Assembly (NCBI GenBank): GCA_002731375.1
Contig: PCBT01000002.1
Span: 68,913 to 132,912, forward strand
Source of the DNA: Rhodospirillaceae bacterium
GTDB taxonomy: Bacteria; Pseudomonadota; Alphaproteobacteria; GCA-2731375
Length of the DNA: 64,000 nt
Direction of reading: 5' to 3'
Shown: positions 38,421 to 43,959 of the stretch, piece after piece
How the letters are laid out: each line of letters opens with the position of its first letter
Position numbering within the stretch: the first letter of the stretch is position 1
Program-made: the position numbers and the translations under genes
Notes under the pieces: model-generated
Databases searched by the model: none
What the model was told of the DNA's origin: nothing
The model's input: only the letters and a program-made list of their open reading frames with translations

Positions 38421-39596
38421 ATGAGCGATACCGCCGAAGGCACGGCGCGGCAGGCGGACCTTCCCTTGCTGTTTCAGCCCATCACCATAAAATCCGTTAC
38501 CGCGCGCAACGGCATCGTGGTGCCGCCGCTGTGCCAGTATTCCGCCGTTGATGGCATTCCCAATGACTGGCATCTGGTACATTACGGCAGTTACGCCCGT
38601 GGTGGTGTCGGCACCATATTTATCGAGGCCACGGGGGTTGAGCCACGAGGGCGCATCAGCCATGGCTGTCTGGGTATTTGGGATGATGAACATGGCGCGG
38701 CGTTGCAGCCCTTAGTCAATATCATGAAGCGCCATGGCGCCGTGCCGGGTATCCAGATTGCACACGCCGGGCGCAAGGCTTCAACCCAGCGCCCCTGGAA
38801 TGGCCTAGGCGCCCTGAACGATGACGATATCGCCCGTGGCGATGTGCCTTGGGAGGTGGTTGGGCCATCGCCTATTCCTGCCGATGATGGCTGGCTGGTG
38901 CCCAAGCAATTGGATGAGGCGGAGATTGGCGAGATCGTCAAAGCTTTTGGCCAGGCCGCCCGGCGCTCACATGAGGCTGGCTTCGAGGCCTTGGAGATCC
39001 ATGGCGCGCACGGTTATCTGATCCAATCGTTCCTCTCGCCATTGTCCAATAAACGCAACGATGGCTATGGCGGCGATTTGGCCGGCCGTATGCGCCTGGC
39101 CCTGGAAGTAACCAACGAAGTGCGCGGCCAGTGGCCCGATGACAAGCCGCTGTTTTTCCGCGTTTCCTCGGTCGATGGTTCGGACGGTGGCTGGCAGATC
39201 GAAGATTCCATTGCCTTGGCCAAGGAACTGAAGGCCCTGGGCGTCGATTGCATTGATTGCTCTTCAGGCGGCAATGCGGCCTCCGCCACGCTGACCCTGG
39301 TGCCCCGTGGCCTAGGCTTTCAGGTGCCGTTTTCTTCCGCCATTCGGGCCGGGGCGGATATCATGACTATGGCAGTGGGTCTAATTCTGGATGGCGAGCA
39401 GTCGGAGGCGATCCTGCAGGCGGGCGATGCGGATCTGATCGCCGTGGGCCGAGAAATCATGTATAATCCGTTCTGGGCCGTACAGGCCGCCCAGGATCTG
39501 GGCATTGATGCCAATTTCGAGATGTGGCCGGCCCAATATGGCTGGTGGCTGGATAAACGGGAACGTACATTCCAGCGCATGGGACACAAGAGGTAG
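38421..39596 (+). CDS. Old yellow enzyme-family NADH:flavin oxidoreductase (YqjM/xenobiotic reductase type)
   Basis: This 391-residue FMN TIM barrel contains NGIVVPPLCQYSAVDG near residues 34-49, the YqjM-class Cys in the flavin loop. HYGSYARGG follows near 54, QIAHAGRKA near 113-121, and EIHGAHGYLIQSFLSPLSNKRNDGYGG near 190-215, with the His pair that binds the substrate carbonyl. The C-terminal phosphate site is GREIMYNP near 350. It reduces activated C=C bonds. Its stop is two bases before the start of the glutaredoxin-DinB gene, whose ribosome-binding site lies within its last codons, so the two are translationally linked. Confidence 0.92.
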   Translation: MSDTAEGTARQADLPLLFQPITIKSVTARNGIVVPPLCQYSAVDGIPNDWHLVHYGSYARGGVGTIFIEATGVEPRGRISHGCLGIWDDEHGAALQPLVNIMKRHGAVPGIQIAHAGRKASTQRPWNGLGALNDDDIARGDVPWEVVGPSPIPADDGWLVPKQLDEAEIGEIVKAFGQAARRSHEAGFEALEIHGAHGYLIQSFLSPLSNKRNDGYGGDLAGRMRLALEVTNEVRGQWPDDKPLFFRVSSVDGSDGGWQIEDSIALAKELKALGVDCIDCSSGGNAASATLTLVPRGLGFQVPFSSAIRAGADIMTMAVGLILDGEQSEAILQAGDADLIAVGREIMYNPFWAVQAAQDLGIDANFEMWPAQYGWWLDKRERTFQRMGHKR

Positions 39597-39598
39597 AT

Positions 39599-40378
39599 AT
39601 GAAGGACGCAACGGCAAGCGAAGTGGTCAGGGTTTTCTGGCAACCTGGATGAAGCAGCTGTCTCCGCCTGAAGGAGCATTTGTCGGCCCGTGCGGTTGAC
39701 TTCCAATCGATCAATGTCGCTGCCGATCCTGACGGTTTGGCACAATTGCAGAAACTTGGCGTCCGTACCGTGCCCGTGGTGGCCAGGGGCGAACGTTATG
39801 TCATGGGGCTGTCCCTGCGCGACGTGGGCGAATTTCTGGGCCTGGATGATCAGGGCCCCGGCATGCTGCCGCCGGCGCAATTGGTGCAGCGCCTGGACCG
39901 GGTCCTAAATGCCGCGCAACGCTACCTGCGGCAATTGCCTGACGATCTGATGACGGCGGAACTACCGGGCCGGGCCCGCAGTTACCGTGATTTGACCTAT
40001 CACATCTTTCAGATCGCCCGCGCCTTTCTGGGCGTCGCCTCGGGTGAGGAACTGACTTATCAGAAACTTGGTGAGCAACCGGGCGATGATCTGGTTACTT
40101 TTGCCGATATTGCCGACGATGGCGACGCCACGCGCCGGGATATCCTGGCCTGGTGGGCGGAACAGGGCGCCGATAGAGACTTCGATGCCACCGTCGCGAC
40201 CTATTACGGGCCGCAGTCCCTGCACGAAACGTTGGAGCGCACGACCTGGCATACGGCACAGCATGTGCGGCAAATGCTGATGATCCTCGACGGACTTGAT
40301 ATAGTGCCCGACGGCGGCGCTATCGGCGAACGGGAACTGGCCGGACTGCCCCTGCCAAAGGAAGTTTGGGACGGCTAA
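39599..40378 (+). CDS. Glutaredoxin-like/DinB-like protein with in-frame TGA at the first active-site cysteine (candidate selenoprotein)
   Basis: Read through one TGA (39650-39652), this is a 259-residue protein. Residues 9-83 are a glutaredoxin-like fold: VVRVFWQPG, then the redox motif U18-S-S-C21, LRLKEHL, and the cis-proline turn VRTVP (P59). From about residue 95 to 240 it resembles DinB/YfiT-type helical bundles, with a likely metal His in WHTAQH. The TGA replaces exactly the Cys I expect in a CxxC motif. The ATG at 39599 has AGAGG upstream and follows the old yellow enzyme stop by two bases. A TTG at 39680 could start a headless protein, but it would destroy the fold. Selenocysteine is my inference; a nonsense mutation is the alternative. 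Confidence 0.7.
39659..39678 (+). promoter_or_regulatory. Hairpin downstream of the in-frame TGA, possible bacterial SECIS
   Basis: CTCC (39662-39665) pairs with GGAG (39673-39676), extended by TG/CA beyond one bulged T. The 7-base loop GCCTGAA starts with G, as known bacterial SECIS loops do. The loop begins 13 bases after the TGA, slightly closer than usual. It is a short stem and could be chance. Confidence 0.35.
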
Positions 40379-40394
40379 AATTGCCTTGGTTCAC

Positions 40395-41167
40395 ATGGTG
40401 ATTACCCTATTCGAACCTTTCCGTGCCTTGTTCTATACGCCGTTTTACGCTGCCCATACGCTTGACGCTTATGGGGCGGAAGGCATCGACGTTCGGCTGG
40501 TGACTTCCGGCGCCGAGGCCACGGTAACCGGCCCGATTTTCTGATGCCGGATCTGATGAATGTCAGACTTGGTGCGGTGTCCGAGGTCAATACGCCGTGG
40601 CTATGCCTGCAGGAGGATTTGCGCCGCGCCGGATTGGACCCGGCCCAGGTCCATCGGGTGGAGGGCAATGCAATGGCGGAAAACGACGCCGCCTTGCGGG
40701 TGGGCGATCTGGAAGCCATCCAGATTTTCCAGCCCTTCGTGGAACAACTAGTAGCCGATGGCGCGGGTCATATCTGGTACGCCGCCGCGTCCAGGGGGCC
40801 AACCAGCTACACTACGTTGAGCGCACTAAGCGAAACCTTGCAAGCCAAGCGCGATCAATTGGGCCGGATGACACGGGCATTGTACCGTACCCAGAAATGG
40901 CTGCAGGGTGCGGATGCCCCGGCTATTGCCGTCGCCGTCGCGGAATTCTTTCCTGACTTGCGCCGGGGAACCTTGGCCGCCTGCATCAAGCGCTATAAGG
41001 AGCTCGGCCTGTGGGGCGTGAACCCAATTCTGCCCAGGGATGGCTTTGACCGTTTGCAAGCCAGCGGCCTGTCCGGCGGACTCTACGAATCCGGCTCACC
41101 CTACGATACGTGCGTCGACACTAGTCTGGCACGTGAAGCAATAGAGGCTGACCCGCCGTCGATGTGA
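40395..41167 (+). pseudogene. ABC-type substrate-binding protein (ThiY/NMT1-like) with internal deletion and frame change
   Basis: An ATG at 40395 opens ITLFEPFRALFYTPFYAAHTL ... GIDVRLVTSG, the N-terminus of an NMT1/ThiY-like binding protein, but it stops at TGA 40542-40544 after 49 codons. In a second frame, from about 40532 to 41167, the family continues with PDFLMPDLMNVRLGAVSEV and runs to a normal C-terminus. Roughly 50-60 residues expected between the two parts, including the middle of lobe 1, are missing. This fits a deletion that also changed frame, so no full protein can be made. It follows the glutaredoxin-DinB gene by 16 bases. Confidence 0.75.
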
Positions 41168-42870: not shown

Positions 42871-43959
42871 CTAGTTTAGGCCGCTTAGCGACTTCTTGGT
42901 ATAGGGTTCAATTTCCTGATAACGGCCTTCGCGGATTTTGTTGGCCCATTCGGCTTCCGACAGTAACTGCCGGCCCACCGCGGCTAGATCGAATTCGCCC
43001 TTCTCCATGCGTTTGACCAATACATCCACGTCGGTGGAATTGGCGCCGGCCCAGGAAGGATCATCTAGGCCGATACTGCCCACGGTGATGGCTGGCTTGC
43101 CCGTGAGTTTCTTGCACCAACCAGCGAGGTTCAGGTCCGAGCCCTCGAATTCGGGCTCCCAGAATCGCCTTGTGCTGGCGTGAAAGACATCGACTCCGGC
43201 ATCGGTCAAGGTTTTCAGGAAGCGTTCCAGTTCCTCCGGAGTCTTGGCGATCTTGGCCTCGTAGTCATCGCTTTTCCATTGCGAGAAACGGTAGACGATC
43301 AGGAAATCCGGGCCCACCGCCGCACGGATCGACTCGACTATTTCCTTGCCAAAACGGTTGCGGTTTTCGAAACTGCCGCCGTATTCATCGGTCCGCTGGT
43401 TTGAGCGTTCCCAATAAAACTGATCAATCAAATAGCCGTGGGCGCCGTGTACCTCGATACCGTCAAAGCCGACCTCCCTGGCATTGACCGCGGCTTCGGT
43501 GAAGGCGGTAATACAATCCTTGATGTCATCCTTGCTCATGGCGATCGGAACATCCCGCTCGCCGGTGGCGACGGCGGATGGGGCATAGCCAGGTACCTCT
43601 CGATCAGGCTCGGTGCCTTTGACCCGCTGCGCGCCCACATGCCAAAGTTGCGGAATGATCTTGGCGCCACCGGCATGGGCCTCTTCGATGACATGCTTCC
43701 AGCCGTCCAGGGCGGCTGGATTGTAGATGTCGGGTACGCTGTCATAGCCGTTGGCGGCCTTGTGATTGATGAAGGTTCCTTCGGTGATGATCAGCCCGAC
43801 GCCACCTTCGGCGCGGCGGCGGTAGTAGGCCGCGACATCCGCACCGGGTACGTTGCCGGGGCTTTTGCGCCGGGTCATGGGCGCCATGACGATACGGTTT
43901 GGCAGGGTTACGCCTTTTACGGTAAAGGGCTCGAACAAAATTTCGACGTTCGCTGACAT
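42871..43959 (-). CDS. Old yellow enzyme-family NADH:flavin oxidoreductase (alkene reductase)
   Basis: This 362-residue FMN TIM barrel is closer to NemA/OYE-type alkene reductases than the enzyme at 38.4 kb. Features are LPNRIVMAPMTRRKS near residues 18-33, IIPQLWHVGAQ near 99-109 and GFDGIEVHGAHGYLIDQFYWERSNQRTDEYGG near 163-195. VGRQLLSEAEW lies near 330. The His pair for substrate carbonyl binding is present as HGAH. It starts with an ATG at 43959, divergent from the aminotransferase gene, with about 100 bases between for both promoters. Confidence 0.92.
   Translation of the reverse strand: MSANVEILFEPFTVKGVTLPNRIVMAPMTRRKSPGNVPGADVAAYYRRRAEGGVGLIITEGTFINHKAANGYDSVPDIYNPAALDGWKHVIEEAHAGGAKIIPQLWHVGAQRVKGTEPDREVPGYAPSAVATGERDVPIAMSKDDIKDCITAFTEAAVNAREVGFDGIEVHGAHGYLIDQFYWERSNQRTDEYGGSFENRNRFGKEIVESIRAAVGPDFLIVYRFSQWKSDDYEAKIAKTPEELERFLKTLTDAGVDVFHASTRRFWEPEFEGSDLNLAGWCKKLTGKPAITVGSIGLDDPSWAGANSTDVDVLVKRMEKGEFDLAAVGRQLLSEAEWANKIREGRYQEIEPYTKKSLSGLN

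Follow-up and report, generated by a model that had tools for sequence, protein, structure and literature searches.

Within the window, the 64,000-nucleotide stretch of alphaproteobacterial DNA analyzed here, we identified a gene for a two-domain protein that joins a glutaredoxin domain, predicted to carry selenocysteine (Sec) in place of its first active-site cysteine, to a DinB domain. The evidence strongly favors this overall picture of a glutaredoxin-DinB selenoprotein, in which the recoding of a UGA would be directed by a SECIS hairpin and the product may act by a two-site redox mechanism. The decoding of the UGA at codon 18 as Sec can itself be taken as nearly certain, as far as sequence allows: many related species retain the UGA, the recoding RNA signal and the Sec machinery, which argues for a real selenoprotein family.

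The gene begins with an ATG two bases after the stop codon (TAG, 39594-39596) of an old yellow enzyme (OYE) gene on the same strand, with which it is probably co-transcribed. Its sole in-frame stop is the TGA at codon 18 and, when this is read as a residue, the product comprises 259 aa with the active site U-S-S-C. An earlier reading of this DNA from the sequence only had placed an ATG with a ribosome-binding site two bases past the OYE stop and had seen a lone in-frame TGA on the first cysteine of a CxxC motif, followed by a DinB domain; the coordinates were confirmed, and the frame, the sequence profiles and the homologues all bear out the rest. The features of the locus are as follows:

38421..39596, + strand: upstream OYE gene (old yellow enzyme, Oxidored_FMN); profile match, kept in the relative L040
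39588..39593, + strand: ribosome-binding site AAGAGG, overlapping the end of the OYE gene; read from the sequence
39599..40378, + strand: predicted selenoprotein gene, glutaredoxin-DinB fusion; ATG at 39599, 259 codons, TAA at 40376-40378
39626..39799, + strand: glutaredoxin domain, residues 10-67; PF00462 (1e-9), 7c10 (3e-14) and Foldseek
39650..39652, + strand: UGA codon for the predicted Sec18, first position of UxxC; homologue alignment
39659..39661, + strand: resolving Cys21 of UxxC; invariant in 39 sequences
39662..39676, + strand: hairpin CUCC-GCCUGAA-GGAG of the earlier reading; not conserved, not the SECIS
39682..39700, + strand: bSECIS hairpin; covariation, absence from Cys forms, fold of -7.7 kcal/mol and synonymous conservation
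39773..39775, + strand: Pro59, cis-Pro of TVP; invariant
39893..40276, + strand: DinB / S-transferase-like domain (DinB_2), residues 99-226; PF12867 (2e-9) and Foldseek
40001..40003, + strand: His135, predicted metal ligand; invariant, in the pattern of the Bst His ligands
40250..40252, + strand: His218, predicted metal ligand; invariant
40262..40264, + strand: His222, predicted metal ligand (HxxxH); invariant

Both domains were recovered with sequence profiles as well as by structural comparison. The glutaredoxin profile PF00462 matches at 38.9 bits against a cut-off of 22.9, in a region that holds both the UxxC motif and the cis-Pro; the closest solved chain by sequence is the glutaredoxin 7c10 (cGrx1), and the nearest models to the domain are NrdH/YruB-like. 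The DinB profile PF12867 matches at 38.5 bits against a cut-off of 24.8 and is accompanied by the four-helix fold. AlphaFold2 yields a confident two-domain model (pLDDT 93.5), for which the Foldseek matches include DinB/YfiT proteins, the Mycobacterium tuberculosis mycothiol S-transferase and single glutaredoxins; the DR0053 target has a TM-score of 0.76, and YizA was also matched. No Foldseek match spans both domains well and the E-values are weak, as one would expect when small domains are fused. Seven positions (Sec/Cys18, Cys21, Pro59, His135, His218, Gln221 and His222) are kept with zero exceptions across 39 sequences. The protein has the three conserved histidines of the DinB superfamily, from which a metal site is predicted, and His218 and His222 are spaced as H160 and H164 of the bacillithiol transferases (Bst), whose proposed metal ligands are H67, H160 and H164 (PMC5815605).

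The homologues place the UGA within a conserved coding frame and align it with Cys, the pattern by which selenoproteins are recognized. Each of 28 full-length TGA homologues (15 from 61 related genomes and 13 from a later profile search) contains exactly one TGA at this same codon, at identities down to about 45%, and none has a second stop. All 15 full-length genes from the 61 related genomes carry the single TGA, over an identity range of 90% to 45%, and a sixteenth genome (G008) has the gene split across two contigs with the TGA in the N-terminal piece. The profile search, run on 385 genomes of the class that are mostly drafts like the rest of those compared, returned both additional TGA genes and stop-free genes; among 13 TGA-free homologues the codon was read in 11 and is TGC or TGT in every one. 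On the tree, the Sec/Cys label requires just three changes. A phylum sample of 399 genomes, thin outside the class, gave two matches, both of them alphaproteobacterial. Further Cys-type glutaredoxin-DinB proteins are found in Caballeronia, Variovorax, Roseomonas and Rhizobium, at 31-43% identity and with Cys at the Sec position; their database names are generic ('glutaredoxin domain-containing protein', 'DinB family protein'). The five plasmid homologues that were read are all Cys forms, two of them on Caballeronia plasmids and one on a Variovorax plasmid (Betaproteobacteria). In one genome (G317), a UGA copy occurs together with a TGA-free one (C24:4426-5187 and C25:5256-6008), a natural Sec/Cys pair.

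An RNA signal of the bacterial type is conserved downstream of the codon. The bSECIS model specifies a loop of 3-9 nt, a stem of 4-16 bp, a G within the first two loop positions, a distance of 16-37 nt from the UGA and a minimum free energy of at most -7.5 kcal/mol (PMC13188914 Fig 2). The hairpin at 39682-39700 agrees with it on every count, having a 7-bp stem and a 5-nt apical loop, CGUGC, at 39689-39693 with G in second place, lying 36 nt past the UGA and folding at -7.7 kcal/mol; for a 57-nt fragment of the window taken alone, the minimum-energy prediction is another, longer structure that is more stable than this hairpin. It is this hairpin that RNAalifold chose from 26 distinct UGA genes. 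Almost every UGA gene forms it, with 98.1% of the stem cells paired as against 58% or less in slid-partner controls, and two stem pairs show changes on both sides: the pair at alignment columns 38-46 is U-A in 16 genes and C-G in 9, and a G-C replacement is seen once at columns 34-50. In the Cys genes, read from alphaproteobacterial genomes, the same columns are 36% paired, a level that does not exceed that of shuffles. Codon choice is conserved as well: where divergent Sec genes share an amino acid, they use the same codon in 90.5% of cases in the hairpin stretch versus 45.7% elsewhere. Arg31, the loop codon (columns 40-44), is CGT in 27 of 28 Sec genes, and CGT makes up 12% of the other Arg codons. 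Because every Sec form has this residue and, of the Cys forms read, just one does, it is probably the RNA signal, and not the protein, that sets it, the SECIS loop dictating the amino acid. The SelD gene of the host has a hairpin after its own UGA with a similar loop, CGUGUU, in line with a single SelB reading both genes. The sequence-only reading had correctly anticipated a bSECIS-type hairpin here, but had picked the wrong one, upstream of that at 39682-39700. Its candidate at 39662-39676 was rejected because it lies too near the UGA (loop at 13 nt) and is unconserved: it is weak (-4.6 kcal/mol), has 69% of cells paired with zero compensatory changes and is lost beyond the closest relatives.

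The host genome encodes the full Sec system, comprising a tRNA-Sec with a UCA anticodon, adjoining full-length selA (580 bits) and selB (426 bits) genes, and a SelD that is itself UGA-encoded at its Sec position, in GGGUGCK (L077:437-1558). Across genomes, a SelB scoring above the curated cut-off occurs in 28 of 29 with the TGA form versus 3 of 11 with the Cys form (Fisher p 1.8e-5); we take this association as support and not as proof, because these genomes share ancestry and pairing them on the tree leaves too few independent contrasts. The distribution of tRNA-Sec is broadly that of SelB; with stricter filters, four draft TGA genomes yielded no such tRNA. The checks proposed with the sequence-only reading, namely that the Sec genes be present in the genome and that relatives have either Cys or TGA at this codon and no random stops elsewhere, have thus come out in its favor, and its core inference, a UGA read as Sec in a glutaredoxin/DinB fusion, agrees with machinery, relatives and hairpin alike.

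Several further observations were made in this survey. A second, Cys-type SelD of the host ends a frame of about 740 aa (L078:1060-3285) and looks like the Ndh-SelD fusion reported in PMC2398784. One genome (G025; C36:7185-7946) has a TGA copy and no detected selB or tRNA-Sec; its assembly is 77% complete, and the absence may reflect missing data or a recently orphaned gene. A second tRNA-Sec-like match in the host genome (L002, 50.5 bits) proved to be a tRNA-Ser, and matches of about 52 bits in three Cys-form genomes without selB (G300, G094 and G377) were assigned to tRNA-Ser by score alone. None of the other glutaredoxins in the host genome has an in-frame stop that would make it a Sec candidate.

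The TGA might instead be a nonsense mutation, real or artefactual, in an ordinary Cys gene, and the setting gives this some color: the next downstream gene is broken in the host genome, whose draft assembly has 115 contigs and a contamination of 6.7%. Since the TGA is conserved across genera and families, we consider this refuted for practical purposes; the same single TGA recurs, at identities as low as 45%, in many species whose genomes were assembled independently, the coding constraint continues past it, and a conserved RNA hairpin follows. A reassigned UGA (e.g., UGA=Trp) or unspecific readthrough is every bit as improbable, nothing in its support having been found: 12 of the 34 long ORFs in the window terminate in TGA, the homologues have Cys and not Trp at the site, and there is Sec machinery as well as a SECIS. 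Translation could also start after the TGA, e.g., at TTG 39680, from which the standard code gives a 232-aa ORF; the product would then be a DinB protein with a partial redoxin, and the UGA would lie outside the gene. This, too, is very hard to sustain in view of the ribosome-binding site at 39588-39593 and of the segment IRVFWQP just before the TGA, which is conserved in Sec and Cys forms and supplies the glutaredoxin fold with its first strand.

Having preferred Sec decoding over these alternatives, we compared the protein with known selenoproteins. Selenoprotein glutaredoxins as such have been described, the Sec-Grx references of a 2026 review of prokaryotic selenoproteins including papers on the Clostridium oremlandii Grx. 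They share with our protein the glutaredoxin fold (PF00462) and Sec in the first position of UxxC, but are small and single-domain, whereas here a DinB metalloenzyme domain occupies the same chain. The 119 prokaryotic selenoprotein families and subfamilies in the 2026 inventory include Grx, distant Grx-like and a number of UXX-star families, and no DinB protein is among them; in the open-access literature, DinB is likewise unmentioned in the main text of the GOS (PMC2398784), 2022 and deep-Sep papers. No NCBIfam model matches above its cut-off: the best matches to the glutaredoxin domain are the UXX-star families NF041212, NF041211, NF047338 and NF041114, led by NF041212 at 39.8 bits against 66, with the others lower (cut-offs of 66-100 bits), and compared with UXX-star the motif here retains the resolving Cys. 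BstA-H and the mycothiol S-transferase have in common with the C-terminal half the DinB four-helix fold and three histidines with an HxxxH pair; unlike the protein described here, they are not selenoproteins and lack a glutaredoxin domain. The Cys-type glutaredoxin-DinB proteins have the same two-domain architecture with Cys for Sec, and the alphaproteobacterial ones lack the SECIS. The fusion, being absent from the published lists examined, therefore looks like a new family, a suggestion of the earlier reading that holds when checked against NCBIfam and the table of the 2026 review, with the rider that older metagenome surveys may include fragments of it as 'Grx-like'. Indeed, 42 Grx-like and 2 Grx sequences are entered as UxxC selenoproteins in the GOS survey (PMC2398784), and single reads might span only the N-terminal, glutaredoxin half, so that the family could already be among them with its fusion unnoticed. 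We regard this as possible but rather unlikely: besides the silence of these papers on DinB, the GOS list of fusions gives other partners (PMC2398784), and NCBIfam has no model that passes its cut-off.

As for mechanism, the SelA/SelB/SelC/SelD system would decode UGA 18 under the direction of the hairpin at 39682-39700, and the Sec selenolate would make the fast nucleophilic attack in a glutathione-linked, NrdH/YruB-like redoxin, with Cys21 resolving the intermediate. The glutaredoxin domain could in this way exchange electrons or glutathionyl groups, and the three-His metal site of the DinB domain may bind and activate a thiol and act on a second substrate. This thiol is most likely glutathione, which the host, having a glutathione synthetase (412 bits), can make; some NrdH/YruB-like redoxins use thioredoxin reductase instead of glutathione. 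Jointly, the two domains might conjugate, de-conjugate or reduce an electrophile or a mixed disulfide. Metal-dependent thiol transferases are among the DinB/S-transferase-like enzymes whose activity is known (PMC10950700, PMC5815605). We tentatively propose a role for the protein in detoxification or deglutathionylation, as a glutathione-linked seleno-redoxin coupled to a three-His metal site.

The genomic neighborhood singles out no substrate. By crude gene calling, no partner recurs widely past close relatives: the neighbors are the OYE and an ABC substrate-binding protein here, an amidase and an isochorismatase in Roseomonas, and catabolic genes in Variovorax, a range that fits detoxification or catabolism. 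The NMT1-like ABC substrate-binding gene just downstream (40380-41167) is broken, with residues ~73-116 missing and a frameshift near 40540 relative to an intact 329-aa relative (L040:6725-7714); the damage may be genuine decay or stem from misassembly. A second OYE-like gene (42871-43959) lies on the opposite strand some 3 kb downstream and clusters with the OYE-type gene adjoining the selenoprotein gene in L040. The host belongs to the same genus as the marine metagenome-assembled genomes L038-L040 (labelled Rhodospirillaceae/Alphaproteobacteria), and the isolate names of these same-genus genomes suggest that it, too, is marine.

The standard code yields a truncated ORF, so that ordinary annotation tends to miss the start of such a gene or all of it. 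The family described here adds to the current inventory and to the NCBI family models a conserved architecture that they lack, namely a Sec-glutaredoxin with a DinB metalloenzyme domain. It thereby ties the use of selenium to the thiol transferases of the DinB/S-transferase-like superfamily, which is large and for which few substrates are known. A more speculative and rather doubtful extension is that the Sec and the DinB metal-bound thiol form one composite active site, making the protein a candidate selenium-dependent thiol S-transferase; if true, this would bring selenium chemistry directly into glutathione conjugation or deconjugation, a use of Sec undescribed in the literature examined. 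Natural Sec/Cys pairs, with the SECIS present in one form and absent from the other, make the value of Sec in this family directly testable.
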